Shown: positions 2,050 to 31,519 of the stretch, one piece after another
How positions within the stretch are numbered: the stretch's first letter is position 1
How the letters are laid out: each line of letters opens with the position of its first letter
DNA from: a virus
IMG/VR virus record: IMGVR_UViG_3300027963_000192
Location: 1 to 33,565 of that record
Direction: 5' to 3' (one strand)
Length of the DNA: 33,565 nt
Translations under genes and position numbers: made by a program
The notes under the pieces: generated by a model
The model's input: only the letters and a program-made list of their open reading frames with translations
Told to the model about the DNA's origin: nothing
The model's database searches: none

Positions 2050-3252
2050 CTATCTAAGTCCTAGCTGAGTTCTAATGGTTGGTATACCAACAGTAGAAAC
2101 TTTTGGTGCATTTGGAAAAAACTGTGAATTGCCAGAGTTTATTGCCTGTCTCACACTACCCGGCAATCCTTGTTGTAGTACGCTCTTGGCGCCGGCTTGA
2201 ACTTCGGCTTTTGCAATCTGTCCAAGATTTGAATTTTTAAATGTGTTATAGGCTGTGCCAGCTGTTTGTACCGCACCTAACACATTTTGTAAACCACCAC
2301 GACCACTTGCCAATGCTTGTAAATCTTCCACACCACCTGCAACTGCATCAATGAGTCCACCTTGGCCAAAAACCGAGTTGGTTCCGCCTGGCCTTGACAA
2401 CCCACTCTTGGTTGTATCGTAATGAGCTGGATCAGCAAATCCTGGTACACTGGTACTGGATTGAGCCCCACCAATTGCACCACTCATATATTTGACAGTT
2501 TCATAAACCACGGTCAGGGTATGACTCATGGTTCCGTTACCTTGGCTGTAATCGTACTGATCACTTTTCCAATCAGTAATGATTGGGTTGATCAAGGTGT
2601 AGCTGGCATAGCGTTTTTGTGCTAGACCGTAAATGGTTATGTCATTGAAGAATCTAGGTTTACCCTTGTTGTCTCCTGTGGCTGTTCCTGGGCTACTATC
2701 TGCGTAGCCTTCGCCAATGTATCCCCAGTCGGTGTTTTGTCTACCACTATAGGTATCGGAGGTGTTGTATCCAAACCCGTTTTGCATGACAGCATTTTTA
2801 CCAGATGTTCCTGCTTGAGCTGGCACATTGTTATAACCGTAACTACTGTCTTTGTAATAATAGGTATAGTAGTTGTACCAGAGATTTCGTATAAGATCAC
2901 TTTGATCATCGTGCAAAGTGATAGTGACTGGTTGATAATTGATCTTGGTCTGGACGATTCTTTTACGATTGTATTGATTAAGTGTGTCGTGGGTAATCTG
3001 ATAGCTGGGCAGGTCTGTAGTCTTGACCATGAGCCCTATGCTGGCAAGATCGTTATTTTGGAATGCTCCGGCCAGTGCTGGAATCTGTCCTATGTTCACA
3101 TTGAAAAAACAATGGAATAAGAACTTGGTTCTAGGAGTAAGTTCGTAGTTGTTGCTTCTGAAGGTCTTACTAGCGTGGGTATAATCTCGTAGCCCGTTGA
3201 CTCCAAAAAAACCCTGAAGTATATTCTCGCCAAACGAGGCTAAGTTAGTCAT
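2050..3252 (-). CDS. Tail tube-like / baseplate tube-initiator protein (gp54-like?)
   Basis: A 400-aa protein. The first 150 residues read like a tail-tube fold relative: ELTPRTKFLFHCFFNVN is followed by IGLMVKTTDLPSYQITHDTL and then VTITLHDDQSDLIRNLWYNY, the pattern seen in tube and tube-initiator proteins of T4-like phages. Later segments (DITIYGLAQKRYASYTLINP, GTMSHTLTVVYETVKYM) continue this beta-rich pattern. The last 130 residues are Gly/Ala/Gln-rich and less ordered. It directly follows the tube gene gp19 with a 12-nt gap. In T4 the tube initiator gp54 and cap gp48 share the tube fold, and a gp54-type baseplate role is my best guess. The family is fairly sure, the exact gp number is not. 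Confidence 0.7.
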   Translation of the reverse strand: MTNLASFGENILQGFFGVNGLRDYTHASKTFRSNNYELTPRTKFLFHCFFNVNIGQIPALAGAFQNNDLASIGLMVKTTDLPSYQITHDTLNQYNRKRIVQTKINYQPVTITLHDDQSDLIRNLWYNYYTYYYKDSSYGYNNVPAQAGTSGKNAVMQNGFGYNTSDTYSGRQNTDWGYIGEGYADSSPGTATGDNKGKPRFFNDITIYGLAQKRYASYTLINPIITDWKSDQYDYSQGNGTMSHTLTVVYETVKYMSGAIGGAQSSTSVPGFADPAHYDTTKSGLSRPGGTNSVFGQGGLIDAVAGGVEDLQALASGRGGLQNVLGAVQTAGTAYNTFKNSNLGQIAKAEVQAGAKSVLQQGLPGSVRQAINSGNSQFFPNAPKVSTVGIPTIRTQLGLR

Positions 3253-3264: not shown

Positions 3265-3906
3265 TTATTGTGCTATACCAACACCAGTAGCTACATCACC
3301 AAGGCTTCTACCAACTGCAATACCAACACCACCACCGCCACCACCGGCTGGGTTTTGTAGGGCATTATCAAATCTAATGGTCAACGCAATTTGCATAGCT
3401 GCATTTTCACCATAGTTAGCATCACCATAGTTGACACCTTGTAGGTAGCAACCATAAATTTCCCAAGTTTCAAGTGCAACTGGAGTATTAGCACCGTTGC
3501 CACCATCAAGTACTTCAAATACAGTAGTAAACTTGTAATCAATACCAGCACTTGCTGAACTCATTTCAGCAAAGTCCAATTGTTTCTGTAATTGCTCACC
3601 AACCAACTTGCTTACATTGCCAGCAGCATCATCACGTAGATTACATGTGACATCAGCCCAGGTATATTTTCCAGCCAGTTTGATCATGCTGTTGTAGATA
3701 GGAAGATCAATGTTATCAAAGGTCACATTTGGCCGAGCAAAATCCACAACCTGTTTGGTTAATTCAGTTACTGGACTTGATACTCCAAAATTCTGAAAGC
3801 TCACTCTAAAGCGATACTTCAGTTTGGGCATTAACAAGCCTTGATTGCTGTTACTCTGATCGCTTGCCAGCGGCACGGTCATTTTTGTTAGCGATGATGT
3901 AGCCAT
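3265..3906 (-). CDS. gp19: Tail tube protein gp19
   Basis: A 213-aa protein immediately downstream of the sheath gene, where T4-like phages carry gp19, the monomer that stacks into the rigid inner tail tube. Visible family features are PKLKYRFRVSFQNFGV near residue 28, FARPNVTFDNIDLPIYN near 70, KYTWADVTCNLRDDAAGNV near 90, and LETWEIYGCYLQGVNYGDAN near 155, followed by a strand of the type IALTIRFDNA. These are the tube-fold strands that face subunit neighbours. The C-terminal 30 residues hold a run of six glycines, an unusual tail compared with T4 gp19 (163 aa), making it about 50 residues longer. A late-promoter box lies at 3939..3933. Confidence 0.88.
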   Translation of the reverse strand: MATSSLTKMTVPLASDQSNSNQGLLMPKLKYRFRVSFQNFGVSSPVTELTKQVVDFARPNVTFDNIDLPIYNSMIKLAGKYTWADVTCNLRDDAAGNVSKLVGEQLQKQLDFAEMSSASAGIDYKFTTVFEVLDGGNGANTPVALETWEIYGCYLQGVNYGDANYGENAAMQIALTIRFDNALQNPAGGGGGGVGIAVGRSLGDVATGVGIAQ

Positions 3907-3983: not shown

Positions 3984-6900
3984 TTATACTGTTGCGCCAA
4001 TGGTTCCTGTGTTTTGAATACGTACTGGTATGTATATAAACTCAACAGCTTTAACTGGCTCAATTGCAATGTCAACCCATAATTCGTTAGCGTCGATTCT
4101 AGCCGGTGTGTTATTTGAAAGATCACATACAACCAAGTAATCATAGATACCACGTTTAGCCACTAAGTCAATCATCAAGTTAGTGATACTGTTGGTAATC
4201 TGATTGCGTGTGATTGTATCGTTTGGTTCAAACAAATATGTTTTACCAATTGCAGCCAATCTAGCACGTAAGAACGCTACTAAGCGAGCTACGTTGATAC
4301 GATCAAGTGCAGTAGTTGTACCTTGTAAGGTATGGTTACCAAAGTTAGTAATACCAACACCTGGAATAAAGGTAATTGGATTGACATCGTTCTGATACAA
4401 TACATCACGTAGGCCTTGATTTACCCCTAACGGAACAAATTCACCAGTCTGTGCATTTAGATAACCAATCTGTGTGGCGTTGTCAATTACACCGCGGCGT
4501 GTGCCGGCCGGTGCCAACCATGGATACGCCACTTCGTCACTGCGTATAATTGTACGCAACATCATGTGGCTTGGTGCTGTTACTACCAGGTTACCACTAA
4601 GGTCGTTAGTAGTACAGCTTGGATAGAATGCAGCCGCATAAGCATCACCAGCATTTAAATTACCGTCAGCTGTGATTACACCTAGACCGTTGTTGTTGGT
4701 TGCCCAAGTTACAATTTCTTCTGGTGTCAATCGTAGCGGAGTATCAACTACTACAAAAGCAGTTTCTCCACGATCAGCATTGAGTAAAGCCAAGTTAGGT
4801 GCCAACTCAGGATACTGTGGGCAGGCAATCAAATTAAACTGATTCTGTTCTTCTCTGATTGTGGTGTTGCTATCAATACCGCTTCGTAATGCCTGATTAA
4901 TAATGGCTCTCTGTGCTTGACGACCCATAAATGGGCTACCGTCAGCTCTGTTACCACTGGCAGTTAACCAGGTGTTGGTAACAGTGATTGGTGTCCAATA
5001 TGCATTGGTTCCAGGAGTTTGATTTGTATTAGCTGTCAAACAGATGTACTCTATACTGCTATTAGTCACTAAAGCACCAACGCTGTAGGCAGTGCTGCTT
5101 AACCATTGGTACGCTGGATAGTCGGTAGTGTTGAAATAGTTGCTTTGGAATGTCTTGACATTGAATCCGCTACGACGAGTGTTCCATAACAAAATACCTT
5201 CTGGATATAGGCTTGGACTCGGTGCGTCTGGATCCAAGTAGTCACTGACTAACAGGCTAGTGATAGTTGGCAACGGATCACTTACAGGATCTGTAGTTCC
5301 GTTTGGTGCCCATCTGGCATCAGCAAACAATACACCACTTTGTGTGGTTTGATTGCTGTTGTCAATCTGTACCCATTGATCAGTTCCATCAACATTTTCC
5401 CAACGATTAATTACCGGATATAATTCAAGATTGCTTGTGTCAATCCACAAATCACCGTAGACCAAAGGACTTAGTGCTGTGTTGTTCTGTGTAGTTGGTG
5501 CACTAGCGGCAATGATTGGACCACTGGCATTGGTGTCAGTAAGGTTGTAACCACGGATATCGTTGTCCACATTTTGATAACCTTGCCATCTGCCACCATC
5601 CTGGATCATGATATCCACTTGTGTCGGGTCGCTGTAGTACCAGTAAGTACCAGTATCAGGATTTTGATCTGGAGCGGTTGAGCTGGTTGTATAGCTAAAT
5701 GTTGGGTAACTTACCCAGTTACTGAGAACTAATGTGTCAGTGTCAGTTACATTCAATGCAGTCAAGCCTCGGATATTTTGACCAGTAGTAAAACCAGCAG
5801 TAGCTACAGCAGTACCTGTTAAATCAGTAAGTTGGATGTCACCGCCTTGACTGTGTGTAAACACAATATAACCACTACTGTCAACTGTGGCACTCACATA
5901 AGGAATATCTGCAGCACTAACTGCGGCAATAAAGTCTGATACAGTAGTACCAGTTAACTCTGCTGTGGCTGTATTAAGTGTGGCACTACCAGCTTCGGTA
6001 GCACTGATTGTAAAAGTATCACCACTGCTAAACACTGTACTAGCAGAAGTAATATAAGAAGTCACGTTAGTGGCACCTAAAATATAGCGTTCCCAGATCA
6101 TGAATGCGCCAGTGCCGTCGCCGTATGGGTCAACTTGAGCATAGGTTGCGCCAACAGGAATAGTAGCGCCACCACCAGCTGGATCTAGTGCATATAAAGC
6201 TGCAGCATCTGTGGCGTATACTGGACAATTTTGTTGTATAAATGTACCCAGAGTTGAATTGTATTTCTTGACTACCAAATTGGTACCTAAGTTTACATTG
6301 TTTGTTTTTTGCCATACAGAACCAGTTGGGTATGGAATTGTACTTGAACTGTTCCAGCGTGGATTTTGATAGCTTGGACTTGCTTGATATTCTGGAGTTG
6401 CATACGCACCTGCTGTGATACCTAGAGTAGCCAATGGAGTACCGGTGCCGTTTTTAACGCTGACACTGCCAAACCATTTAATGTTACCAACACTTGTTGG
6501 TACTGTAGATGCAGATACAAAACTGACTGTGGTGTTGCTTGCGGCAACTACATCAAATGTACCATCGTATGTACCACTAGTGGTACCAGCAATGGTAATG
6601 GTACTACCAACAGGATAAGGATTAGGTACAGTGTTTCCTGCATTGGTAAATGTTAAAGTGGCAATACCTGTTGATACATTTGCAGTACTACCTGTAATAT
6701 TACCTGCGTAGCCAGTTGATAGGCTATCAGCATAGATAAACAATGCACCACCAATTGCAGCAGAATAAACACCGGCTATGTTGGCTGTGTTGATTGCTGC
6801 GGATAAACCAGCTGGAGTATTATTAGTTGATACTGGAACTGTAACTGTGCTAGTATTATTGATAATAATTGTGTTGTTGGCAACCAATGATGCGGGTGCT

Positions 6901-7649
6901 AGTGTGCCACTAACTGTAGGCCATGCTGTTTTCCAATCATCACTACCAACTGCTACCCAAGTGTTATATAACTCACCTAATGTGGTTGAGCTAGTTTGTG
7001 TAGTGGTTGGACCACCACGCTTGTAGTATTCAGGATTTTGTAGTGCGCCTGCAACATCAGCACTTTGAACTCCACCACCGACCACTGTGTAGTCACCAAT
7101 ACTGCCATAACTTTGTAGCGGTATTGATTCGCCAGTTACCAAATTAGCTGTGCTAGTAATAACACTAGGAATTTTGTTGCTGAATGCACCAGTGGTCAAA
7201 TTCCACTCAAAAATTCCCCATGAACTATTAACTGAATCTAACCAGTATGTGTTGTTGTTTGGAGCACCCAACGGTCTAGTTAAACTAGCAGTAAGAGCAG
7301 CCAGGTCAATATCAACACGCTGTATATAACATTGGTTGGTAATACCCAATGCGCTATAAGCGGCCAATAAACCATATTCATTCAGCTCGTATCCGTTGAT
7401 CGGAGTACCAGCTGTGGTATTGTAAAAGAACGGAACACCAAAGGTGTTGAGCAAGTCTCTTTGACTTGTCATTAAATAAGTTTTGTTTGCATTAACAGCC
7501 AGTGTGCCCGAAGCTACACCAACTCCAGCGCCAGAAACTTTGTTCTGAGCTGTTGCCAACAAAATAAACGGTACCGAATTGGTAGCGCCTGGGATATAAT
7601 TGCTTTGATCAATTATAGTAACTTGTACACCGGGGGATATTAGAGCCAT
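3984..7649 (-). CDS. gp18: Tail sheath protein gp18, very large form (1221 aa)
   Basis: Contractile tail sheath subunit. The N-terminus MALISPGVQVTIIDQSNYIP and the C-terminal 270 residues are classical: WLAPAGTRRGVIDNATQIGY, then YQNDVNPITFIPGVGITNFG, then ALDRINVARLVAFLRARL, and a final strand set ending IYIPVRIQNTG. I choose the ATG at 7649, not the in-frame one at 7745, because of the conserved MALISPG start, AAGGA upstream and a late promoter at 7682..7676. T4 gp18 is 659 aa; here about 550 extra residues sit in the middle. They include two similar modules (about residues 255-310 and 540-605), a module with GDLWIDTSNLELYP (about 730-780) and a carbohydrate-binding-like segment (about 846-888). 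These insertions should be exposed on the sheath surface. Confidence 0.92.
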   Translation of the reverse strand: MALISPGVQVTIIDQSNYIPGATNSVPFILLATAQNKVSGAGVGVASGTLAVNANKTYLMTSQRDLLNTFGVPFFYNTTAGTPINGYELNEYGLLAAYSALGITNQCYIQRVDIDLAALTASLTRPLGAPNNNTYWLDSVNSSWGIFEWNLTTGAFSNKIPSVITSTANLVTGESIPLQSYGSIGDYTVVGGGVQSADVAGALQNPEYYKRGGPTTTQTSSTTLGELYNTWVAVGSDDWKTAWPTVSGTLAPASLVANNTIIINNTSTVTVPVSTNNTPAGLSAAINTANIAGVYSAAIGGALFIYADSLSTGYAGNITGSTANVSTGIATLTFTNAGNTVPNPYPVGSTITIAGTTSGTYDGTFDVVAASNTTVSFVSASTVPTSVGNIKWFGSVSVKNGTGTPLATLGITAGAYATPEYQASPSYQNPRWNSSSTIPYPTGSVWQKTNNVNLGTNLVVKKYNSTLGTFIQQNCPVYATDAAALYALDPAGGGATIPVGATYAQVDPYGDGTGAFMIWERYILGATNVTSYITSASTVFSSGDTFTISATEAGSATLNTATAELTGTTVSDFIAAVSAADIPYVSATVDSSGYIVFTHSQGGDIQLTDLTGTAVATAGFTTGQNIRGLTALNVTDTDTLVLSNWVSYPTFSYTTSSTAPDQNPDTGTYWYYSDPTQVDIMIQDGGRWQGYQNVDNDIRGYNLTDTNASGPIIAASAPTTQNNTALSPLVYGDLWIDTSNLELYPVINRWENVDGTDQWVQIDNSNQTTQSGVLFADARWAPNGTTDPVSDPLPTITSLLVSDYLDPDAPSPSLYPEGILLWNTRRSGFNVKTFQSNYFNTTDYPAYQWLSSTAYSVGALVTNSSIEYICLTANTNQTPGTNAYWTPITVTNTWLTASGNRADGSPFMGRQAQRAIINQALRSGIDSNTTIREEQNQFNLIACPQYPELAPNLALLNADRGETAFVVVDTPLRLTPEEIVTWATNNNGLGVITADGNLNAGDAYAAAFYPSCTTNDLSGNLVVTAPSHMMLRTIIRSDEVAYPWLAPAGTRRGVIDNATQIGYLNAQTGEFVPLGVNQGLRDVLYQNDVNPITFIPGVGITNFGNHTLQGTTTALDRINVARLVAFLRARLAAIGKTYLFEPNDTITRNQITNSITNLMIDLVAKRGIYDYLVVCDLSNNTPARIDANELWVDIAIEPVKAVEFIYIPVRIQNTGTIGATV

Positions 7650-7675: not shown

Positions 7676-7682
7676 TATTTAT
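7676..7682 (-). promoter_or_regulatory. T4-type late promoter box (ATAAATA)
   Basis: Minus-strand ATAAATA; predicted start near 7670, giving a leader of about 21 nt with AAGGA before the sheath ATG at 7649. It argues against the longer upstream start at 7745, which would precede this box. Confidence 0.68.
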
Positions 7683-7733
7683 GGCCAATGTCAAAAAGAA
7701 CGTCTGTTGCCTGCCCTTTGGAAAGGTTTGATG

Positions 7734-7743: not shown

Positions 7744-8091
7744 ATGAAAAGACCGTTATGTTTGGTGTGTAAACAGAGATTTTGTGCTATAAATTACTAT
7801 CGTGATGAACAGGCGCACTATCGCAGTAGGTGCGAACACTGTATCAAGAAAAATCAACGGATTAAACCGCCAATAGCTCGATGGCAAACTGCAGGCTACA
7901 AGAAAAAACCCATGTGTGATAGATGTGGGTTCAAGTCTAAATATGCCGCACAGTTATTGGTGTATCATGTGGATGGCGACATGAACAATGTTGCTGTTCG
8001 TAACTTAAAAACTGTGTGTCAGAATTGCGTTATTGAAGTTGCCAAATCTACTCTGCCTTGGCGCCAGGGAGATCTTGAACCAGACCTGTGA
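7744..8091 (+). CDS. Small zinc-binding, HNH-like phage protein (115 aa)
   Basis: A 115-aa basic protein with four Cys pairs or near-pairs: CLVC (6-9), CEHC (about 30-33), CDRC (about 58-61) and CQNC (about 92-95), so two zinc knuckle-type sites are likely. The second half, VYHVDGDMNN followed by NLKTVCQNC, has the layout of an HNH nuclease core (H-x-D-G, N, N-L-x-x-x-C-x-x-C), although the canonical double His is reduced to one. It could be a DNA-binding protein or a degenerate nuclease. I recall similar short proteins in T4-like cyanophages, without known function. It is divergent from the sheath gene and its last 44 bases overlap the 3' end of the opposing dNMP kinase gene. Confidence 0.8.
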   Translation: MKRPLCLVCKQRFCAINYYRDEQAHYRSRCEHCIKKNQRIKPPIARWQTAGYKKKPMCDRCGFKSKYAAQLLVYHVDGDMNNVAVRNLKTVCQNCVIEVAKSTLPWRQGDLEPDL

Positions 8092-11527: not shown

Positions 11528-11570
11528 ATAGTATTTTATCCTGTTTTGAGTTTTTGGTCAAACTTTGCGG

Positions 11571-11576
11571 TAAATA
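11571..11576 (+). promoter_or_regulatory. TAAATA box close to the gp14 start
   Basis: Plus-strand GTAAATA ends 7 nt before the ATG at 11584. With T4 late-promoter geometry the transcript would begin about 2 nt before the ATG. There is no Shine-Dalgarno in this interval. The same arrangement occurs before the plus-strand genes at 7744 and 31566. Confidence 0.4.
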
Positions 11577-11583
11577 CTTGACT

Positions 11584-12957
11584 ATGCCACGCCTGAGCCT
11601 TTATCGCCCCAATCGAACCAACGACTATCAATTCTTTGATCGCACTATCAAAGAGATGTACACAGTAGGTGGAGTAGATGTTTATGTCCACAAATATCTG
11701 GGCCCAATCTTGGATGAAAGTGAGAATCCTGGAAACAACGATGCCACGCTACCAGTGTACGACAGTGTGAATCCGTTGTTTATTGAAGATTTGCTGTTGT
11801 TGGAAAACAGAGATAGAGCCTATGATCCTGATGTGTATATCATGCGCGGTGTTTATCAACAGCAAGATATTGATTTTGATCTTACACAATTTGGCTTGTT
11901 CTTGAACAATGATACCTTGTTTATCACGTTCCATTACAACTACATGATTGATGCGTTTGGTCGTAAATTAATGTCAGGTGATGTGCTAGAGTTGCCCAAC
12001 CTTAAAGATTACTATCCTCTAGATCCAACCATACCGTTGCCTTTGCCCAAATACTATGTGATACAGGATGGGTCTTATGCCACTGAAGGATTCAGCCAGA
12101 CCTGGTTGCCGCACATATGGCGTGTGAAGGCCACTCCAATGGTCAATGCCCAAGAGTTCCAACAGATTGTCAACAAACCTTTTATGCCGGACAATATCTG
12201 GGATCCAGGAAATTTTTATCCAGCGGGATTCACTGTGCTAGATGGCGACAGCTACTATCTTTCCAAGGGCAATGTTCCTCCGGGCACTCCTGTGACTGAT
12301 ACTGCCTACTGGACTCCCATCACCGATCCTGCCACAGTGGGCGATCGTATGAGTACTAGACCCCGAGACCTGGAGATCAACGATGCCTTGTTGGCACAGG
12401 CACAGGTGGATGTTCCGTTTAGTGGATACGATACCACAAAATTTTACATATTACCAACTACTCCCTACGGTGATCCAGCCAGCGTTGGCATTGTGGCCAG
12501 TGATGGATCTGTATCTTCTAGTAGCACACTCGAAGGCGAAGGTACTAGTCCTAGCAGTTTTGGTTATACCATGGGCTATCTCTCAGGTGGATACGATCCA
12601 GAGACTGGGTACTTGTTGCCACCAAATGGATTGCCAGTTGTTCCGGGTGTGAGCTTTCCACCTAATCCCACAGTTGGTGCTTATGCGTTGAGATTGGACT
12701 ACTCGCCCAATCGTCTATTCCGCTACAATGGTAGTCGATGGGTGGCCATAGAATCCGCAGTAAGAACTGATCTTGATCTAGCACCGGCCGCAGAAACTTT
12801 ACGCAACAGCTTCGTGAACAATACATATACAGTGAGCACCACAGACATGGGTAATATTCCAAGTCGTCAAAGTCTCAGCCAGATACTCAAACCTCTAGCT
12901 GATAACGGTGATCAAGGCGGCAACATTACCCCACCCAACCCAAGACCACCAGGATAA
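11584..12957 (+). CDS. gp14: Neck protein gp14-like, extended form (457 aa)
   Basis: Counterpart of the neck protein gp14 of T4-like cyanophages, which with gp13 seals the neck. I place the start at MPRLSLYRPNRTNDYQFFDR (11584), the conserved N-terminus, not the in-frame ATG at 11554. Family segments in order: VDVYVHKYLGP (about 40), INPLFIEDLL-type NPLFIEDLLLLENRDRAYDP (about 75), FLNNDTLFITFHYNYM (about 115), KLMSGDVLELPNLKDYYP (about 137), and TEGFSQTWLPHIWRVKATPM (about 165). T4 gp14 is 256 aa; the extra C-terminal half carries a carbohydrate-binding-like segment (about 205-248), a Ser/Gly-rich linker, and an LRLDYSPNRLFRYNGSRWV module (about 370). It ends with a Pro-rich tail 2 nt before gp15. 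Confidence 0.82.
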   Translation: MPRLSLYRPNRTNDYQFFDRTIKEMYTVGGVDVYVHKYLGPILDESENPGNNDATLPVYDSVNPLFIEDLLLLENRDRAYDPDVYIMRGVYQQQDIDFDLTQFGLFLNNDTLFITFHYNYMIDAFGRKLMSGDVLELPNLKDYYPLDPTIPLPLPKYYVIQDGSYATEGFSQTWLPHIWRVKATPMVNAQEFQQIVNKPFMPDNIWDPGNFYPAGFTVLDGDSYYLSKGNVPPGTPVTDTAYWTPITDPATVGDRMSTRPRDLEINDALLAQAQVDVPFSGYDTTKFYILPTTPYGDPASVGIVASDGSVSSSSTLEGEGTSPSSFGYTMGYLSGGYDPETGYLLPPNGLPVVPGVSFPPNPTVGAYALRLDYSPNRLFRYNGSRWVAIESAVRTDLDLAPAAETLRNSFVNNTYTVSTTDMGNIPSRQSLSQILKPLADNGDQGGNITPPNPRPPG

Positions 12958-18401: not shown

Positions 18402-21400
18402 TTATGCTCGGCCTACTGCCACTTCAATAATGCCAACTGTTTCGCTGTCATAATCTTGTAGGGCTTTACCAATCAGGCATCCTGGTTGATATACGGAAGG
18501 ATCTAATCGTACAGCCACTCCGGGAATATCACCAGTTACCAAACGATCTCCTTTGGCTATATTGCCTGTGACTTGACACGGCACACGACCAACCAACGCA
18601 ACTGGCACTATATTTTTACCAGATTGAAACGTATTCATCAAGTGAGCTGGTTCTGTACTGACCACGCCAGCCACAGCAGGATTACTCAGTGTAGTACTGA
18701 TTGTGACTTCGTTTGCGCCGCCAAATACCAATACTGTTCCAGGAGCATACTCAAAATCGGCTGCATAACATTCTGCCAAGTCGGCGTATTGTGCTGTGGT
18801 TGCTGTAACCTGAAGCACATTGGTTGCGGCATTGAAGCTGAACGCTGTGGCTGCAGTTCGTATACTTGGAGTGGCCTGTGTTCCAGCACCAGAAACAAAC
18901 ACAGGATAGAATGTGCCAGTGGTGACTGCTGTGGCATTGATTGCTGTACTTGGTCCAGTTGGTCCTTGATTACCTTGATTACCTTGATTACCAGTAGTTC
19001 CTTGATTGCCCTGGTTACCAACGGTACCTTGAGTACCTTGGGTACCAACGGTACCTTGATTGCCCTGATTACCATTATTGCCGTTTGTACCAGCGTTACC
19101 TTGTGTACCAGTGGTGCCTTGATTACCTTGATTACCTTGATTACCCGTGGCGCCTTGAGTACCTGTTGTTCCTTGATTGCCCTGATTGCCCTGATTGCCT
19201 TGGTTACCAACAGTTCCCTGAGCACCAGTAGTTCCTTGGGTACCTGTTGTGCCCTGATTGCCCTGATTGCCTTGGTTACCAACAGTTCCCTGAGCACCAG
19301 TAGTTCCTTGGGTACCTGTTGTACCTTGATTACCTTGGTTACCTTGATTACCAACTGTGCCTTGTGCTCCGGTAGTGCCTTGTGCTCCGGTAGTGCCTTG
19401 GGTGCCGTTTGTGCCTTGGGTACCGGTTGCACCTTGAGTTCCTGTGGTACCTTGAGCGCCAGTTGTGCCTTGTGCACCAACAGTTCCTTGTGTGCCTGTA
19501 GTTCCTTGTGCGCCCGATCCTTGTACTGGGTTGCCGTTGGCGTATTGGAATCCACCAGCCATGACGTTACCGGTCACAGTGACCAGGCCACCTGTGCGTA
19601 TGTTACCACCAATTATGTTGCCAGTTCCAGTTACAACCCCAGATCCAAATAACACATTGCCACCTGTTACGTTTGCTGTAACATTTAAACTGCCCAGTGT
19701 GCCTACTGAGGTAATATTTGTTTGACTTGCAGTCTGTAAAGTACCAGTCAAGTTTGTGGCAGTTATGTTACCAGTACCGCTTACAACCCCTGTGCCAAAT
19801 AACACATTGCCACCAGTGATGTTTGCTGTAACAGCCAAACTGCCTAGTGTGCCCACTGAGGTAATATTTGTTTGACTTGCAGTCTGTAAGGTACCGGTCA
19901 AGTTAGTAGCAAATACATTGCCAGTGCCACTTACAACACCTGTGCCAAATACAACATTGCCACCGGTTACGTTTGCAGTTACGCTGACAGTGGTTCCTGT
20001 ATGAGCGGTTGCTGATATGTTACCGCCTGTGATATTACCGCTTGCACTCAGTATGCCTTGTACCTGCATGCCATTGCTGGCCACCCAGGTGTTGGCAGTA
20101 CTGCTATAGGTTAAGCTGATGAATTCACTACCTGCTGGGCCAACTCCAATGCCACCACCGTTGGCCGCAGTTGCATTGGCTGCATTGTTGGCCATGTTAA
20201 TAGTTAAGTCGTTTGTGGTTATGTTGTTACTGTTGATATAGGTCACGTTACCATTTACAACCAGGTTACCTTGGATAATAACTTCGCCATCAACACTGCC
20301 AGGACTGTTTGGATCAATAACAATGGTATAATTACTTGATGTGATACTGTTACTGGTAATGTCAAATGTACCAATGCGTGCAATGCCGTTTGTGGTCAAA
20401 TTGCCAGCAGTTACGTTGGCTGTCACACTCAAACTACCCAATGTGCCTACACTGGTAATATTAGTTTGACTTGCTGTCTGTAAGGTACCAGTCAAGTTAG
20501 TGGCAAATACGTTGCCTGTACCACTCACAACACCAGTACCAAATCTTACATTGCCGCCAGTGATGTTTGAAGCGGCACTTATTAATCCACCTGTTAATAT
20601 GTTTCCACCGGTTACGTTTGCAGTGACAGCTAAACTGCCCAGTGTACCCACTGAGGTAATATTTGTTTGTGCGGCTGTTTGTAAAGTACCAGTTAGGTTA
20701 GTGGCAAATACATTACCAGTTCCGCTTACAACACCAGAACCAAATATCACATTGCCGCCAGTGATGTTTGAAGCGGCACTTATTAAGCCGCCAGTTAATA
20801 TGTTTCCACCGGTTACGTTTGCAGTGACAGCTAAACTGCCCAGTGTACCCACTGAGGTAATATTTGTTTGTGCGGCTGTTTGTAAAGTACCAGTTAGGTT
20901 AGTGGCAAATACATTGCCAGTTCCACTTACAACACCAGAACCAAATATCACATTGCCACCGGTTATATTTGCAGTGACAGCCAGACTGCCCAGTGTGCCC
21001 ACGCTTGTGATATTTGTTTGACTTGCCGTTTGTAAGGTACCAGTTAGGTTAGTGGCAAATACATTACCTGTACCACTTACTACACCTGCACCAAATATCA
21101 CATTGCCACCAGTGATGTTACCACTGGCACTGATTGATGTTCCCGTTACTGACGCAAATACAAGACTTCCGGTTACACTTATGTTACCACCGTAAATATT
21201 GCCACCAGCACTTACATTATTGCCTGTAAGAAGATTGGCACCAGTTATGTTTCCGCCCACTGATGCTGTGCCACCCGTGGCCAAATTGCCAGCTGTGATG
21301 TTGGCTGTGGCACTTATCAGACCACCTGTTAAAATATTGGCACCAGTTATGTTTCCGCCCACTGATGCTGTGCCACCCGTGGCCAAATTGCCACCTGTGA

Positions 21401-22478
21401 CTGTTGCAGCAACACTGACCAATCCACCAGTTAATAAATTGCCACCTATTATGTTGCCTTGAGCTGTGATTGATCCATCTGTGCGGAGATTTCCAGCGGC
21501 AATGTTGCCCAATGATGTAATGTTACCAGTGGCAGTTACTATTCCACCAGTAATTAAATTTCCAGCAGTGACAGTCCCAGTAACAGATGCCAGTCCAGAT
21601 AAATTCACGCTGGTTGCATTTACGTTTCCGCTTGCACTGATTGTGCCGGCCAATACATTGCCAGCAACACTGACTAGTCCGCCTGTTATAATGTTACCAG
21701 CTGTAACATTGGCTGTGACACTTATCAGGCCACCGGTTAACAAATTTCCACCAGTGATGTTACCACTGGCACTGATTGTAGTGCCAGTCACTGAGGCAAA
21801 TACAAGACTTCCAGTTACACTTATGTTCCCACCGTAAATATTGCCACCAGCACTTACATTGTTGCCTGTGTTGATATTGCCACCAGTAACGTTACCTACA
21901 GCACTGACAGTGTTGGCCGCAATAATGTTGTTACCTGTAACATTGCCAATGACGCTCACTGTTGCGCCAGTTAATTCGCTGTTACCAGGGGTGCCTGACA
22001 GTACTGTGGCACCACCGTCGGGATTGGTCAACACAATACTTGTGGCATTGGCACTGATTGTGGCATTGCCAAGATAGATTGTGTTGCCATTTAGGTATAG
22101 GTCTCTCCATCGATTGGTTGTGTTACCTAAATCTTGAGTGATATTGGCCGCTGGAATCAAGCCAGTTGTAGTAAAGGCCGCAATAGCAGTGCCGCCAACA
22201 GCTACATTAATGTTGCCACCAGATGTGGCTATTGCGACATTTGATGTTCCGTTTTGTATGCTGGTTGTAGCAATACTACTTAACAATGCGCCATTACCTA
22301 GAATATAAGCACCGGTTACATTGCCGGATACGCTGACATTTCCAGCAAGAACGTTACCGCCAGCACTTACATTACCAGCAGTTGCTACGTTGGTTTGGAT
22401 AAGAGTACCAATAATATTATTACCGTAAATATTACCGGTTGCGCTAATTCCCGTGGTTCCGTCAAGTGTAAGTGCCAT
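18402..22478 (-). CDS. Long tail fibre protein with collagen-like stalk (1358 aa)
   Basis: The N-terminus MALTLDGTTGISATGNIYGN is a common start of fibre proteins in marine T4-like phages. Residues about 20-985 are dozens of copies of a 15-20 residue beta-repeat of the form [15 protein letters not shown], interspersed with FATNLTGTLQTASQTNITSV modules. Residues about 987-1175 form a collagen-like Gly-X-Y stalk rich in GTQ, GTT, GAQ and GNQ with almost no proline. The last 125 residues are a distinct globular domain beginning ADLAECYAADFEYAPGTVLV and including NPAVAGVVSTEPAHLMN and VALVGRVPCQVTGNIAKGD, a type seen at the ends of phage fibres and possibly a self-processing or trimerisation domain. 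A late-promoter box lies at 22509..22503, with GGA upstream of the ATG. Confidence 0.88.
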   Translation of the reverse strand: MALTLDGTTGISATGNIYGNNIIGTLIQTNVATAGNVSAGGNVLAGNVSVSGNVTGAYILGNGALLSSIATTSIQNGTSNVAIATSGGNINVAVGGTAIAAFTTTGLIPAANITQDLGNTTNRWRDLYLNGNTIYLGNATISANATSIVLTNPDGGATVLSGTPGNSELTGATVSVIGNVTGNNIIAANTVSAVGNVTGGNINTGNNVSAGGNIYGGNISVTGSLVFASVTGTTISASGNITGGNLLTGGLISVTANVTAGNIITGGLVSVAGNVLAGTISASGNVNATSVNLSGLASVTGTVTAGNLITGGIVTATGNITSLGNIAAGNLRTDGSITAQGNIIGGNLLTGGLVSVAATVTGGNLATGGTASVGGNITGANILTGGLISATANITAGNLATGGTASVGGNITGANLLTGNNVSAGGNIYGGNISVTGSLVFASVTGTSISASGNITGGNVIFGAGVVSGTGNVFATNLTGTLQTASQTNITSVGTLGSLAVTANITGGNVIFGSGVVSGTGNVFATNLTGTLQTAAQTNITSVGTLGSLAVTANVTGGNILTGGLISAASNITGGNVIFGSGVVSGTGNVFATNLTGTLQTAAQTNITSVGTLGSLAVTANVTGGNILTGGLISAASNITGGNVRFGTGVVSGTGNVFATNLTGTLQTASQTNITSVGTLGSLSVTANVTAGNLTTNGIARIGTFDITSNSITSSNYTIVIDPNSPGSVDGEVIIQGNLVVNGNVTYINSNNITTNDLTINMANNAANATAANGGGIGVGPAGSEFISLTYSSTANTWVASNGMQVQGILSASGNITGGNISATAHTGTTVSVTANVTGGNVVFGTGVVSGTGNVFATNLTGTLQTASQTNITSVGTLGSLAVTANITGGNVLFGTGVVSGTGNITATNLTGTLQTASQTNITSVGTLGSLNVTANVTGGNVLFGSGVVTGTGNIIGGNIRTGGLVTVTGNVMAGGFQYANGNPVQGSGAQGTTGTQGTVGAQGTTGAQGTTGTQGATGTQGTNGTQGTTGAQGTTGAQGTVGNQGNQGNQGTTGTQGTTGAQGTVGNQGNQGNQGTTGTQGTTGAQGTVGNQGNQGNQGNQGTTGTQGATGNQGNQGNQGTTGTQGNAGTNGNNGNQGNQGTVGTQGTQGTVGNQGNQGTTGNQGNQGNQGPTGPSTAINATAVTTGTFYPVFVSGAGTQATPSIRTAATAFSFNAATNVLQVTATTAQYADLAECYAADFEYAPGTVLVFGGANEVTISTTLSNPAVAGVVSTEPAHLMNTFQSGKNIVPVALVGRVPCQVTGNIAKGDRLVTGDIPGVAVRLDPSVYQPGCLIGKALQDYDSETVGIIEVAVGRA
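18955..19520 (-). repeat. Collagen-like coding repeat of the 1358-aa fibre
   Basis: In frame, about 60 Gly-X-Y triplets ([15 protein letters not shown]), almost proline-free. Within it a 72-base unit starting near 19191 recurs at 19263 with near-perfect identity and again in variant form toward 19335. Such stalks form trimeric triple helices in phage fibres. Confidence 0.85.
20552..20953 (-). repeat. Two tandem 201-base copies in the 1358-aa fibre gene
   Basis: The block beginning at 20552 recurs at 20753, an offset of 201 bases or 67 codons. About 120 consecutive bases (from 20594) match exactly, and the rest differ at a few third positions. The frame is preserved, as expected for recent unequal recombination inside a repetitive fibre gene. 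Confidence 0.85.
21235..21393 (-). repeat. Pair of exact 57-base repeats, offset 102 bases
   Basis: Positions 21235-21291 and 21337-21393 are identical. The 102-base offset equals 34 codons, so length changes here keep the fibre frame open. Confidence 0.8.
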
Positions 22479-22527: not shown

Positions 22528-23208
22528 CTATCCGTAAAAAGTAATACGAACTCGTCCAATGGCACCTGCAGGGTTGACTCCAGCAGTGGCACTACTGGCG
22601 CCTCCGCCGCCGGGTGCTGTGCCGGCTGTGAGCGATGCGCCGCCTGTTCCAGAACCCATCTGTTGTGCGGTGAGGCTCATACCTGTAGTATCTGTTCCGG
22701 CTGTTTGCCCTGACCCTGCTGTGCCGGCACCTGCAATAGTGGCTCCTGCACCAGCACCGCCGCCACCCAGAGAAGTGGCGTTATTACCCACTGCCCCACT
22801 GCCACCATCAGCAGTGGTTGTTCCAATCATTGTGCCTGTAGTGCCGTTGCCTGCCACTCCCGAAGCAGCGTCAGATCCGGGTTGTGCCCGACATCCGGTG
22901 GCCGAGCTCGATGGATTTGCATTGGTACCCACGTTGACCCAACTCAGAGTGCTGGCTGCACCAACTGAATAATACACAATAGTGGTTCCACCGGTGACGT
23001 CAAGATTTATAGTTCTAGCAAAACGACCACCTCCGCCACCAGCTTTGTTGGCATTGGCGGTGGCTCCAAATCCGTTGCCGCCACCGCCAATGGCTTCTAC
23101 AGTGACTCTAGTCGCTCCAACAGGTGCGGTAACGCTGCCAGCACCGGCTGTGGTTATCACTGTCACTTGTGGAAATGCAGGTGTTCCTGCCATTACTTGT
23201 ATGGTCAT
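22528..23208 (-). CDS. Gly-rich tail fibre tip / adhesin-like protein (226 aa)
   Basis: I start this protein at [20 protein letters not shown] (23208), not the in-frame ATG at 23256, because its ATG overlaps the stop of the 865-aa fibre as TAATG, a translational-coupling arrangement. An N-terminal strand-rich part, SVTAPVGATRVTVEAIGGGG, leads to long glycine-rich stretches (KAGGGGGRFAR, SLGGGGAGAGATIAGAG, APGGGGASSATAGV), and it closes with AIGRVRITFYG, the usual end of this Gly-rich family in phage fibres and tip proteins. Glycine-rich loops of this sort form receptor-binding tips in T4-like gp38 adhesins; this protein is not clearly homologous to gp38, but a distal-tip role on the coupled fibre is plausible. 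Confidence 0.8.
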   Translation of the reverse strand: MTIQVMAGTPAFPQVTVITTAGAGSVTAPVGATRVTVEAIGGGGNGFGATANANKAGGGGGRFARTINLDVTGGTTIVYYSVGAASTLSWVNVGTNANPSSSATGCRAQPGSDAASGVAGNGTTGTMIGTTTADGGSGAVGNNATSLGGGGAGAGATIAGAGTAGSGQTAGTDTTGMSLTAQQMGSGTGGASLTAGTAPGGGGASSATAGVNPAGAIGRVRITFYG

Positions 23209-25805
23209 TAGATTAGTCCAGCACCCGAAATAACAAATGTATTTGCAGCCACACACAAAACTGTGCTGAGACCAAATTGTGTCAGAGTCCTGTTACCAGT
23301 ACTAGCAGTGCCGGCCAATCTCAAAGTGACGCCAGCTGTGCTTCCATTGATCAGTATGTTAGCAGCCTGATTGTTGAACAAAGTGATACAATCGCCTGCA
23401 CCAAAAACTGAAGCTGGAACAACAATAGAGGTAGTACCAGTGTAGTTTATGTGTCGGCCAGCATCACCAACCACCAAGGTATAGTTGGCAGCGGCACTGG
23501 CTCGAGCCACAATAGTACGCACATTGCCAGCCACATCAAACACGTTACCGGTTGCGCTGACGTTGCCACCTGTGATGTTGCCAGTCAAACTTGCCGTAGT
23601 ACCTGTGTGTGTGGTTGCGTTGACATTGGCACCACCCAGTATATTACCACCGGTGATGTTGCCAGTGGCTGATATTTGGCCAGTTGCGCTGATACCACCA
23701 CCTGTTAAAAGATTGCCACCTGTGACATTACCAGTCAAACTTGCCGTAGTACCTGTATGTGTAGTGGCATTGACATTGGCACCACCCAGGATATTACCAC
23801 CTGTGATGTTGCCGGCTACACTTAGGCCTGCAGCACTGGAGAATGTGGCTATCGCAGTGGGCGTTATAGAATTTACGGCTGTAGTAAATATCTGCACGTC
23901 GGTTGGGCGGCTGGTATCTGTAAAGGCTCCCGAGGCTGTGATGTCTACTCGACCACTTGAAATATTTCCAAACTGTAAAGTTCCGCTACTGAATCCACGG
24001 CCAGTAAACTGAGAAATGGTATCTGCAGACTGGGTCTGTGTTGGCGAGGCTGCAGTGCCTCTGGCAGAACGTCCAGTAAACGCCACGTATTGACTTGTAC
24101 CAAATGCATCTTGTGTGATACGAGTTTGCGTTCCATCTGCTCCTGATATGTGTAGGTCTGTTCCAGTAGTGGTACTGTTGCCAGTGACTGGATAACTCAC
24201 AGTTTGTGGGTTTGCTAAAATATTAATTTCTGAGTCAGGTGTGGCTGTGCCTACGCCAAAAAATCCGGCGGTGCTGACAATGATATTACCAGTAACACTT
24301 ATCTGGCCACCAGTTATGATGTTACCACCGGTAATGTTTGCTGTGGCACTTACAACGGCCACATTACTGATACTGAAACCTTGCCCATCAATATTGGCAG
24401 TCAAGTTTCCACTAAATGATCCGGTTGTGCCTTGAGCACCTGTTGTGCCCTGGGCTCCAATTACTCCTTGTGTACCTTGAGCTCCATTAGTGCCTTGTGT
24501 GCCCTGTGCTCCACTTGTGCCCTGGACGCCTTGAGCTCCTGTAGTTCCCTGGGCTCCCACGGTGCCTTGTGCTCCGGTGATGCCTTGAGCACCTGTAGTT
24601 CCTTGAGCACCTGTAGTGCCTTGAGCACCTGTAGTTCCTTGAGCACCTGTAGTTCCTTGAGCACCTGTTGTGCCTTGAGCACCTGTAGTTCCATTAGTTC
24701 CTTGAGCACCTGTTGTGCCTTGTGTTCCTGCACCTGTAGTTCCTTGAGCACCTGTAGTGCCTTGAGCACCTGTTGTGCCTTGTGTTCCTGCACCTGTAGT
24801 TCCCTGTGCGCCTGCTCCTGTAGTTCCTTGTGTGCCTGTACCAGTTGTGCCTTGAGCACCTGTTGTTCCGGTTGTGCCTTGCGCTCCGTTCGTACCAGTT
24901 GTGCCTTGTGCGCCAGATTCACCACCACCTTCATCGCCGTTGGATCCGTAAATATACAAAGTACTGCTGGTAGGCACGGTAATACCAACGCCTTCGTCAA
25001 CATTCAGCGGTCCATATAACACAGCGTTTACATTTGGTGATACTGTGACATTGGAAGCAATCGTCTCTGGAGTTGCAAACGTACCGTACATGGTCAATGA
25101 TCCCGGGTCAAGTGTCATTGTGTTTGCTTCGCCATTTACTGCAAATAGTATAGATCCATTGGCTGTTGGGATAGCAACATTAGAATTTCCGTTTACAATT
25201 TCGTTGGTGCTTGCAACAACCCCAGTTAATTGACTTCCGTTACCAATAAAGAAACTACCAATGTTGGCCGTAATGTTTCCAGTAGAACTGACAGTTCCCA
25301 GGACGGCAATACCAGTATTTGATATGGTAAGCACATTGGCTGTACCAGCCGAAGTTATGGTTATATCTGAGTTACTATACACTGTAACATTGCTGTTGCC
25401 GGCATGTAGCACATTGGCATAGTAGTTCTGTGTAAATATTAATGCTGTTGTTCCAATCACAATTGGATTGTCAGTGATCAGTTTCCACTGTGTGTCGGCG
25501 TAGATTACGCCTTCGGTAACCATAATAATGGTACCAGCTAGTAGTTCCCCAGTTACATCTGTGTCGCCGCTACGAGTCCAAGTTCCATTTGCGCCAGTGC
25601 CCAGGACAGATACTACATAAACACCATTTTGACTTTGAGTTGTTTGGCCTGTGACCAATACGCGATCGTTGACACTGAGATTTATTCCATCAACATTGTT
25701 GGGAGCTCCGCCCGTTAAAGAGACGTTCGCAACAGTTACCGCCCGTGTTGCCTGTTTATAATCTATGTCGTATATTTGATACGCACGAGGTTTAGTTAGA
25801 GCCAT
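23208..25805 (-). CDS. Tail fibre protein with collagen-like stalk (865 aa)
   Basis: The N-terminus [20 protein letters not shown] is followed by a beta-rich module (about residues 22-125) with [20 protein letters not shown] and [19 protein letters not shown], a design found near baseplate-proximal ends of phage fibres and also inside the neighbouring 1567-aa fibre. Residues about 296-460 are a collagen-like stalk of GAQ and GTT triplets with a few phase breaks. Residues 465-790 hold the [11 protein letters not shown]-type beta repeat plus a non-repetitive domain ([20 protein letters not shown]). The last 75 residues, [20 protein letters not shown] onwards, resemble the small C-terminal domain of several phage fibres. 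The stop overlaps the start of the Gly-rich protein by one base. Confidence 0.87.
24424..24920 (-). repeat. Collagen-like 18-base repeat of the 865-aa fibre
   Basis: The 18-base unit CCTTGAGCACCTGTAGTT, encoding GAQGTT in reverse, runs in tandem from 24583 to 24690 with single-base variants, then continues in degenerate form. A 60-base near-repeat at 24711 and 24771 carries a GAGTQ phase break in the Gly-X-Y register. Confidence 0.85.
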
Positions 25806-25883: not shown

Positions 25884-28800
25884 TTAGCTTAGGGTTAGTG
25901 CAACACTTCTTGTTGTACCGTCACTACCACGTACCAAGATATTCAACTGAGTATTACTTACCAGCTGGAAGCTCATGGTACTGTTTGTTGACAGTGTTGG
26001 AGCCGCACTATTAACAGTGGTCACCAAGTTACCAGTGATGTTGATCTGTGATGAAGTTGGGCTGGCCGCAACAATCGCATTTCCACTCACGTTGTCAATC
26101 TGGCTTACAGTTACAGTGGTTGTGATCTGTCTTACGTCAATCACGTCACCGTTTGCTGGAGCTTCAGTAAATGTCAGTACACAAGTTGGGTTGGTTCCTG
26201 ACACAGAGTATGCCAGTGTTGGAATCTGTACCACACCGTTAATACTTACAATACAACTGTTGGTTGTTTGTGTGCTTGATAATGTGAAGTTTACAGTTGC
26301 ACCATCACCATTGAACTGTTGATCGCTGATAACAGTAAACTCTGTGGAACCAACTGGGGTCCAAGCATTGTTGTCGTAGATCTCTAAGTTGTTTTGAGTG
26401 GTATTGAAACGAACCATACCAGTGTATGTGCTTGATGGTCGCTGTGCTGTGTTACCAGTTGGTACTACAAAGCTGGTAGTAGCATTCATGGTCAATACAG
26501 AACATGCTACGATTGAGTTACTAGCAATCAACACAGTACTGTCTACAGGATCAACGTAGAAGAATGTGTTGACTGTGACGTTACCCGCAGAGTATATCTG
26601 ACCACCTGTACTCAAGTTACCAGCACTAACATTACCAGTTATACTTGCGTTAGAACTTACATATAAATTAGCACTATTAACATTACCGTTGGCTGCGTTC
26701 AAGCTACCTGAATAAAGTACTACATTTCCAGTGCCTTGAATTCTTACACTTTCACCATAAACATTAGATCCAGTATTTGTAGTCCAGAAACTGATGTGGG
26801 TTGGTGTACTACCGGTTGTCCAATCTGCTGCTGCGTCGAGAGTAATTTGTGCGCTAGGACTGACTGTAAGAGTTGTGCCATTTTCAGATCCTCTACCAGC
26901 AAAAGAAGCCAACCGATTGTTGATCTGCGAAGGAGTGCTGTTGCCTAGTATATAACTACCATTGTATGATCCGCCGCCAACTGCACCAAGTCCAGTACCA
27001 GTGGTGTTGATTTGTACAAAGCATTCTGCATTAGGCACATCGCTTTGAATCAACATAGCAGTATTGCCACCTGTTTGAACAATAAATGCACCAGTTCCAT
27101 CTGGGTGTACGCTGATGTTGCCGTTTGTTATAGCACCAACAATACTTTGTGTTGGAGTTATGGTCAAGTTACCAGAGACAATATTGCCACTGGCACTGAT
27201 TACGCCGTTTGCCGCTAACAAGTTATTGGCAAATGTGGTTGTCACGTTGCTGGCTGCGCCAACTGCAATTACCAAGTTGCCATCTGCTGACGTAATATTG
27301 GCATAACTACCACCGTTGACCAGTTTGGTTATGGCCACGTTGCCCGGGTTGATGTTGCTGATATAGTAACCATCGCCTACAAAGAAGCTACTGGTAACAA
27401 TGTTACCACCAGCACTCACAATGTTTCCAACTGTCACGTTGTTAGCCGTCACGTTACCACTGGCACTTACTACAGTTGCCAATACATTGGCACCCGATAC
27501 ATTACCACCTGTGCTGATTGCGCCACTGTTAAGGACTAGTACAGCATTGGCTTGTACATTTCCGCCTGCGCTAACGTCTGTGGTTACATTTACATTGCCA
27601 CCACTAATTGTGCCAGTTCCGCTAACAACCCCAGAGCCAAATATCACGTTACCGCCTGTGACATTACCAGTTCCACTTACAACACCAGAACCAAATATAA
27701 TGTTGCCGCCAACTACATTTCCTGTTGCTGATATATTGGCTACAGCATTTACGTTTCCACCACTTACATTACCAATAGCAGTTATATAACCACCAGTTGT
27801 GATATTGGTCAGCATATTAATATCGCTGAATACGTTACCGACTATGCTCAAGTTACCAACAAACGCATTTCCTGCAACGCTGAGGAATCCACCTGTAACC
27901 AAATTACCACCAGTGATTGTAGCAGTTGCACTGATCGCGTTGCCAGTCAACAAGTTACCGCCGGCTATGTTTGCCACAGCAACAATAGTGCCTGCTGCAC
28001 TTACATTACCGCCGTAAACATTGCCACTTGCACTGAGTTCTGTTGCACCAACAGCACTTGCAGTTACGTTGCCAGTCAAGCTGATTGTTGTACCAGTTGC
28101 TGATCCAAGAGCTGGAGTAGTGAATTGAGCACTGGTTGATACTTGTAGGTTACCAGATCCATCATACTCTAGGTTGCCAGTATTGATTCTGGTGCTGATT
28201 TCGTTAGCAACGATAGCAATACCGTTACCTTGTATGTATGTACCTTGACCAGAGAACTGTGTGAACACAATGTTGTTTCCAGCTTGTCCCACGTTGCTGA
28301 CGTTGCTGGTTTGTACCCAGCTGGTATTGCCATATACATTACCGTACAAGTTGAACACAAAGTCACCAGCTTCAACTTCTGGCACTTGGTTGTAATCTGC
28401 GGCACGAGTAATAGCTGTTGCATTGGAATAAACATAGATACCGTTGAACACTGCATTGGCTTCTGCCCTGACCAAGATACGTGTGTTGGCTACGTTAATA
28501 GCCACACCGTCAATGTTGGTATATGAACCGGTTGTGGTCAGGGTAGCACCAACACCGTTATTGGCTGGACCGTTGTAGTATGTTATAGTACCGCCGGTGA
28601 TATTTGCCAAGGTGTTGCCGGTAGCAGCACTGGTACTGTCATGGATGTTGAGTCCTTGAGCCACGTCATCTACATACTGCTTGGTTGCCGCATCTTGTGG
28701 CTGTTCTGGATTTGCCAAGTTGTTGATGTATGTGCTACCAACACCAATGTTACCAGTTCCGTTTGTTAGGATGCTGATACCGCTATTAGTGCCAACTGCA

Positions 28801-30713: not shown

Positions 30714-31418
30714 TTAGGATGTGTAGTTTGTGATCAACCCAAGCACAATATCGCCAGTTGCATTGGTGAATGTTTCAACTTCGGCTCCGGACTTGGGCGT
30801 GGTATTACCGGTGTCAAAGAATGTAGAACTGAACTGTGTGTTGGCTGTGTTCGAGCTGTTGTAATTCCACACATACAAGTTTTCCAATTTTGCTACCGGT
30901 GTCACGTTGGCTGGATTGCCATCGTAGCTGAAAGTAATACTCATGGTGTTGGCTGTCAGTAATGCCGCATTGGCCTGATTGGCCAACAAGCACTGCCCTA
31001 CCAGGTTTACAGTACCAGATCCGGTACCAGCTTGATTGGCTGTGAAAATATCGCCCACTGTGGCTGTAACTGGTGCACCAATTGCGGTAAATGTTGTAGT
31101 TCCTACACTGACAATACGATAACTACTGCCGGCCACAATATTTGCAGCAGTAGTAGCGGCTGTAGATCCAACCAGGTATTTGGTTGCACCTTTTTGACGT
31201 ATGATATAAGCGGCGGTGTTGCCTACGCCGTTGATGTTGGCATCACAGGCCACTACTGGATAGGCAGCTGTTGCAATACCGGCGTTGGCACCACCGACTA
31301 CACCAATAAAGTCTGTAGTGGTCATGCCAGTTGGAATCACAGGCACTTCTAGGTTACCAAAGTCATTGAAACCAATGTCTATGGTGGTTGATTTTTTAAT
31401 TTTTAAAGGACGGCCCAT
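30714..31418 (-). CDS. Small virion structural protein (234 aa)
   Basis: The N-terminus MGRPLKIKKSTTIDIGFNDF leads to a protein of mostly beta strands. Around residues 85-140 it carries a module, NIVAGSSYRIVSVGTTTFTA followed by GDIFTANQAGTGSGTVNLV, that recurs in virion proteins of tailed phages. ISIFSYDG-like strands (MSITFSYDGNPANVT) and an acidic C-terminus with KSGAEVETFTNATGDIVLG follow. It opens the fibre block with AAGGAG before the ATG and a late box farther upstream at 31519..31513. I recall similar proteins next to fibres in marine T4-like phages. It is probably a minor structural or fibre-associated protein; the precise role is unknown. Confidence 0.75.
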   Translation of the reverse strand: MGRPLKIKKSTTIDIGFNDFGNLEVPVIPTGMTTTDFIGVVGGANAGIATAAYPVVACDANINGVGNTAAYIIRQKGATKYLVGSTAATTAANIVAGSSYRIVSVGTTTFTAIGAPVTATVGDIFTANQAGTGSGTVNLVGQCLLANQANAALLTANTMSITFSYDGNPANVTPVAKLENLYVWNYNSSNTANTQFSSTFFDTGNTTPKSGAEVETFTNATGDIVLGLITNYTS

Positions 31419-31512
31419 TTGTTTTCTCCTTAAAGAAGTCCAATGCAGGTTCTATTCTGCTACGCTGTTGGGTTGCCCGTTCAGCATAAAACGCCTGATT
31501 GCGTTGAACAAG

Positions 31513-31519
31513 TATTTAT
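31513..31519 (-). promoter_or_regulatory. T4-type late promoter box (ATAAATA), divergent region
   Basis: Minus-strand ATAAATA in the 147-base gap between divergent genes. The predicted start near 31507 gives a leader of about 90 nt for the 234-aa gene, longer than at the other late genes. Confidence 0.5.

Follow-up and report, generated by a model that had tools for sequence, protein, structure and literature searches.

The virus record IMGVR_UViG_3300027963_000192 (33,565 bases; its whole length is called the window here) carries a gene for a tail sheath protein of 1221 residues, which raises the question of how so long a sheath is built and what its additional sequence may do. An earlier reading of the sequence (the original prediction) had described a sheath of nearly twice the normal length, with surface modules inserted between intact core segments. 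We find it likely that the protein is a tail sheath of the kind found in jumbo-phage-type myoviruses, with a standard core and a layered outer insert that forms a structural and adhesive coat. Viewed module by module, such a giant phage sheath would consist of an old shared scaffold together with cassettes that come and go and are also found in fibres. Some relatives differ by one module alone, and with them the question of why large phages pay for heavy sheaths becomes testable.

A complete sheath core with one large insert

The protein matched the tail sheath family PHROG 10581 (E 3.7e-197), and the Pfam family Phage_sheath_1C was recognized at residues 1113-1211 (E 8.9e-14, 51.8 bits against a cut-off of 26.9); Phage_sheath_1 (PF04984) had no match anywhere on the record. 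A search of PDB sequences with the whole protein retrieved sheath proteins, matched by its C-terminal part, and a single chance match (E 1.2). In a sequence profile comparison, residues 414-648 of T4 gp18 aligned with residues 967-1215 of the window sheath (probability 99.7%).

Two monomer models were predicted, the first from a shallow alignment and the second from an alignment of 92 diverse rows. The second had a mean predicted local distance difference test score (pLDDT) of 89.3 and a predicted template modelling score of 0.75, and it recovered the complete core that the original prediction had placed at the two ends of the chain. The model aligned with the T4-like sheath 9f4a over 350 residues (Z 36.8, root-mean-square deviation (rmsd) 2.8 Å) and with the one-domain pyocin R2 sheath 3j9q over 338 of 385 residues (Z 33.6). 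In both alignments, the first and last aligned residues lay near the ends of the model. Because the match to T4-like and pyocin sheaths runs from end to end, the model indicates that a whole minimal sheath is present and that the central stretch is accessory to it.

As predicted, the extra sequence lies all at one place, which is the site of domains I and II of T4 gp18. In gp18, domain I (residues 98-188) is nested in domain II (88-97 and 189-345), domain II in domain III, and domain III between the termini (PMC3004832, PMC8570332). The window sheath shares the core fold and this nested-insertion topology, but its insert comprises about 790 residues, compared with the 258 residues of gp18 domains I and II between the same two core parts. 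No significant sequence match for the insert was found in T4 gp18. Domain I of gp18 protrudes and is bound both to the baseplate and to the long tail fibres in their retracted state (PMC3004832). Because the insert occupies the position of domains I and II, it probably points outward.

A scan of viral contigs with the sheath confirmed 449 relatives, and the best 80 of the 449 were used, a set biased towards the window's own architecture. A complete sheath open reading frame (ORF) of 1093-1266 residues was present in 73 of the 80, and the other seven reach a contig end. Full-length relatives had 54-96% identity to the window sheath, and an identical protein was found in two other contigs (L001 and L002). 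The statement that the sheath is nearly twice the normal length holds against T4 gp18 (659 residues), from which it differs by 562 residues, close to the predicted surplus of about 550. It does not hold against the protein's own family, where lengths of 1093-1266 residues are ordinary. In each of four long records of relatives (96-317 kb) there was one sheath match, and a separate short sheath was not evident in these four records, none of which is known to be complete. Further scans with the sheaths of PA5oct and RaK2 and with T4 gp18 gave a wider set of 122 loci, in 120 of which a sheath ORF was recognized by the core profile, as it was in T4 itself; the longest had 1292 residues. These form the wider set of 121 sheath proteins (T4 included) used below.

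Trp-rich repeats and IN-like modules

The Trp/Tyr-rich modules noticed in the original prediction are real repeats, of which profile comparison revealed four copies (W0 to W3, Table 1). The fourth copy came from a segment intended as a control: residues 120-170 (W0) matched W1 (E 3.4e-6), W2 (E 1.1e-9), and W3 (E 6.1e-6). Direct comparisons of W1 with W2 and of W2 with W3 gave no match, nor did comparisons of the repeats with three core control segments (C1-C3) and the segment of IN-like module 2. The Trp-rich segments also matched no Pfam family of note. Since each repeat is covered in 89-92 of the 92 rows of the wide family alignment, the Trp-rich repeats are, on this sequence evidence, an old scaffold.

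The two modules that had been predicted to resemble each other carry their core motifs at residues 284-291 (AAINTANI) and 575-583 (AAVSAADIP). Profiles cut as clean slices from 22 relatives without the nested cassette described below confirmed the similarity of IN-like modules 1 and 2 (probability 86.7%, E 4.3e-6, 85 columns), and control comparisons of these profiles with the cassette gave probabilities of 0.2% and 2.6%. A first comparison of the two modules had given 3-7%, with a module 1 slice that stopped at the cassette and some module 2 rows that held a cassette copy. A 98.7% match of the module 2 alignment to the cassette was likewise discarded, as it stems from rows holding another cassette copy.

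The proposed likeness of these modules to the IN-type insertions of flagellin and hook proteins stood in part. Flagellin_IN (PF07196) was the commonest Pfam match in module 1 of the relatives, where five of the 22 had it (best E 9.6e-5). In module 2 it was found in three of the 22 (best E 0.048), and DUF347 in one more. The fold of module 2 resembled Vibrio flagellin and the D2-D3 domains of FliD (Z 7.2-8.4 over 93-102 residues), a likeness that may reflect a common arrangement, and a PDB sequence search with module 2 gave chance-level matches only. The weak Flagellin_IN matches were confined to relatives; the window's own module segments had no match to this family in Pfam at E values up to 10, so that their membership in it is putative. 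Among the wider 121 sheath proteins, module 1 was detected in eight and module 2 in 35.

Cassettes MA and MB

Two further modules had been overlooked in the original prediction, whose inventory was thus incomplete: a beta-barrel cassette nested in IN-like module 1 (MA) and a module of CBM5/12-like fold just before the core resumes (MB). MA was present in 40 of 81 sequences (the window and the 80 loci, partial ones included). Sequences without it have a short linker at the site, of about 14 residues or fewer and mostly 11, and three relatives (L024, L038, and L055) carry a second copy before module 2. The predicted fold of MA was closest to a barrel of E1 (Z 8.8), which we take to be the stretch named FCCH, a name that entry 2v31 bears, followed by phage endosialidase barrels (Z 7.0-7.1).

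No match to MA was found among named phages (tblastn, 50,697 records, E up to 1). A scan of viral contigs with the MA profile confirmed 411 stretches; the best 80 of the 411 were used, which gave 79 new loci. These loci held 84 MA-bearing ORFs, 20 with a sheath core and 64 without, and two of the latter have a sheath-like N-terminus. Ten core-less ORFs were picked by hand for a PHROG scan: two matched tail fibre families, one a minor tail family, one a tail fibre assembly family, and two virion structural families, while one matched a family of unknown function weakly and three were unmatched. Judged from these sequences, MA is not a sheath invention.

MB was present in 38 of the 81 sequences. 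An additional match in L084 was weak and judged false, and it should be noted that this locus supplied one row of the MB profile without being a true member. The fold of MB was compared using the first model, in which this stretch had a pLDDT of about 50-78. Several chitin-binding domains, including modules of the CBM5/12 type, share its small beta fold and cover the whole module (Z 7.0-7.9, rmsd 1.0-2.2 Å, 43-48 residues, 19-33% identity). In the PDB sequence search, chitinase A1 was retrieved at E 0.064. The same tblastn search of named phages returned 14 records for MB (best E 4e-3), several of them annotated as tail proteins. An MB-like module was also recognized with a custom-built profile within the window itself, at 12193-12324 on the plus strand in a virion structural protein (11554-12957; E 4.2e-5).

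In a tree calculated from 66 different cores, with inserts excluded, at least three changes were needed for MA and at least four for MB; the tree was built by a quick method and is unrooted, so that gain and loss are not distinguished. MA and MB were gained or lost separately among the relatives. Neither cassette occurred in the wider 121 sheath proteins.

Comparison with known sheaths

Long multi-domain sheaths, which the original prediction treated as unusual, have been described before. According to PMC9230969, type 3 multi-domain sheaths, often with Ig-like extra domains, are found in most phages above 100 kb, and those of Atu_ph07 (1086 residues), LacPavin_0818_WC45 (1283 residues), and Mad1_20_16 (1248 residues) all have five or more domains. 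Type 3 sheaths have three or more domains, the extra ones standing beside the core; in the window sheath the extra ones are the four Trp-rich repeats, the two IN-like modules, MA, and MB. In type 3 sheaths the extra domains face away from the tail tube, as those of the window sheath may do, given their insertion at the position of gp18 domains II and I. The genomes of phages with such sheaths are typically, though not strictly, larger than 100 kb; the present record has 33.6 kb, the identical protein of L002 lies in a 95.9 kb contig, and the records of relatives reach up to 317 kb. Following the published account, the window sheath belongs with the type 3 multi-domain sheaths described in 2022 (Evseev et al., PMC9230969).

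The sheath of the Agrobacterium phage Atu_ph07 was the best annotated match (44.8% identity over 59% of the window sheath). Both have an N-terminal and a C-terminal core part and several outer domains, and Atu_ph07 also has a large genome. However, the window sheath is 135 residues longer, and in the alignment Atu_ph07 has a gap at 316-374 in place of the barrel cassette and is also missing some of the CBM5/12-like module. The metagenomic jumbo phages LacPavin_0818_WC45 and Mad1_20_16 have sheaths as long or longer, a likeness drawn from published length and domain count (PMC9230969). The RaK2-like and PA5oct sheaths (about 880 residues) share the core and the Trp-rich scaffold, with a module like IN-like module 2 in RaK2 and its relatives, but they are about 340 residues shorter and lack both cassettes. 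In titles and abstract openings of the open-access literature, we found no report of a CBM5/12-type, carbohydrate-binding, chitin-binding, or flagellin-IN-type module in a sheath. The module inventory may therefore be new, though the kind of sheath is known.

Proposed role of the outer layer

In the favoured reading, the chain ends would form the standard contractile core, which, by analogy with the family, would hold the tube, link subunits, and contract. The Trp-rich repeats and the IN-like beta modules would make up the older outer scaffold, to which MA and MB would have been added later. The resulting coat would stabilize neighbouring subunits and might also dock fibres or appendages, or adhere weakly through multivalent contacts to fibres or to the surface of the host. 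Adhesion, appendages, and stability have all been proposed as roles of added sheath domains (PMC9230969). The outer layer is presumably repeated in every subunit. Because the T4 sheath has six subunits per 40.6 Å ring (PMC3004832) and the tail of Atu_ph07 measures 136 nm (PMC6102473), a tail of that length would have at most about 200 sheath subunits and hence hundreds of modules, as the original prediction had supposed.

Several points weigh against this reading. The core was poor in the first model (mean pLDDT 65.8), and the Z values of MA and of IN-like module 2 (7-8.8) are in a range where the likeness may be no more than a common arrangement. The Pfam match of MB to PF02839 (E 3.9e-4, 20.8 bits) falls below the cut-off of 26.2 bits, and binding of chitin or another glycan by MB is putative. 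Many relatives lack MA or MB, which shows that the family can do without either cassette. The added domains could also lie between neighbouring subunits instead of pointing outward.

One alternative is that the modules chiefly stabilize the sheath, packing on neighbouring subunits or rings and stiffening a large tail without touching the host, which we hold to be possible but somewhat doubtful. Cementing is named as one role of added domains, and domain II of the phage 812 sheath touches its neighbour (PMC9230969). The Trp-rich scaffold is as widely conserved as packing surfaces should be. However, a surface dedicated to packing should not behave like MA and MB, which come and go, or turn up again in fibres and further virion proteins, as MA does.

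An unlikely alternative is that tail appendages encoded separately, like the hair-like whiskers of CBB, dock on the modules. This jumbo phage has whiskers along its contractile tail, their genes being given as unknown in PMC5259590, and its sheath is a relative of the present one (44.5% identity, covering 38% of the window sheath). The binding of retracted fibres by gp18 domain I (PMC3004832) and the long collagen-like fibre genes within the window are also consistent with docking, whereas the closer relative Atu_ph07 bears most of its whiskers on the capsid (PMC6102473). An artefact of assembly or an in-frame fusion, which the original prediction had named as grounds for rejecting it and for which length alone speaks, is excluded for practical purposes by the identical protein in L001 and L002 and by the full-length relatives.

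Beyond the structural and adhesive coat favoured here, a bolder proposal can be made, although we give it little credence. The sheath of this clade would then be a multivalent adhesive coat whose hundreds of CBM5/12-like and barrel modules, drawn from a cassette pool common to fibres and virion proteins, would bind glycans of hosts or particles, with relatives retuning the coat by swapping cassettes at fixed sites.

Gene start and genomic context

Table 1 Coordinates of the sheath gene, its parts, and adjoining features in the window
Feature	Coordinates	Strand	Basis
Tail sheath gene, 1221 residues, T4 gp18 family	3984..7649	-	ORF, PHROG, Pfam, PDB sequence search, model fold
Sheath core, N-terminal part, residues 1-115	7305..7649	-	Conserved in relatives; alignment of the model to sheath structures starts here
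Trp-rich repeat W0, residues 122-172	7134..7286	-	Profile match to W1, W2, W3
IN-like module 1, split by MA, residues 242-440	6330..6926	-	Profile comparison, Pfam in relatives, AAINTANI
Nested beta-barrel cassette MA, residues 316-390, inside IN-like module 1	6480..6704	-	Presence/absence in relatives; fold
Trp-rich repeat W1, residues 438-485	6195..6338	-	W1-W3 E 1.7e-7
IN-like module 2, residues 525-645	5715..6077	-	Fold, Pfam in relatives, profile comparison, AAVSAADIP
Trp-rich repeat W2, residues 655-702	5544..5687	-	W2-W0 E 1.1e-9
Trp-rich repeat W3, residues 722-772	5334..5486	-	W3-W1 E 1.7e-7; W3-W0 E 6.1e-6
CBM5/12-fold module MB, residues 845-892, before core resumes	4974..5117	-	Pfam sub-cut-off; fold
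Sheath core, C-terminal part, residues 902-1221	3987..4946	-	T4 gp18 alignment; Phage_sheath_1C 1113-1211
Late-promoter-like CATAAATA upstream of sheath start	7676..7683	-	Box search
Tail tube protein adjoining sheath	3265..3906	-	phrog_4542 E 1.4e-47
Second tail tube protein	2050..3252	-	phrog_13438 E 6.6e-14

The sheath ORF lies on the minus strand, with its ATG at 7649 and the end of its stop codon at 3984; the original prediction had the coordinates right and left the strand unstated. A plus-strand reading of 3984-7649 was ruled out, the frame being crowded with stops. The open frame continues for 32 codons upstream of 7649, up to a second candidate ATG at 7745. This start was dismissed in favour of 7649: relatives begin at MALxSPGV, AAAAGGA, which resembles a ribosome-binding site, stands upstream of the ATG at 7649, and a CATAAATA box lies at 7683, between the two candidates. 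T4 late promoters have the sequence TATAAATA. Of the 72 relatives with enough upstream sequence, 57 have a NATAAATA box in the 90 nt before the sheath, which, with the box at 7683, supports the start at 7649. The motif [TC]ATAAATA has just four sites in the window (7683, 3940, 31520, and 739), all on the minus strand and all CATAAATA late-promoter-like. Three of these boxes are found a short way ahead of the sheath gene, the tube gene, and the 30714-31418 ORF, and the fourth before the 105-713 ORF.

A dNMP kinase gene precedes the sheath, and the two tail tube genes come after it. RaK2 and PA5oct also have a kinase gene of this type directly before their sheath gene, and in Phosso it stands two genes before. 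Between sheath and kinase, a divergent Cys-rich ORF of 115 residues (7744-8091, plus strand) had no Pfam match at E up to 0.01. The same held for a 1567-residue ORF at 25884-30587 on the minus strand, and a tRNA search of the window found none. The minus strand encodes two long proteins that resemble fibres and contain collagen triple-helix repeats, at 18402-22478 and 23208-25805. A TPR-repeat protein with a weak match to glycosyltransferase family 9 is encoded at 31443-32714 on the plus strand. A freshwater-2 RNA (RF02980) was recognized at 31416-31506 on the minus strand, where its Rfam score of 63.7 bits exceeds the gathering score of 49.9. It sits directly ahead of ORF 30714-31418 on the same strand and is preceded by the CATAAATA box at 31520.

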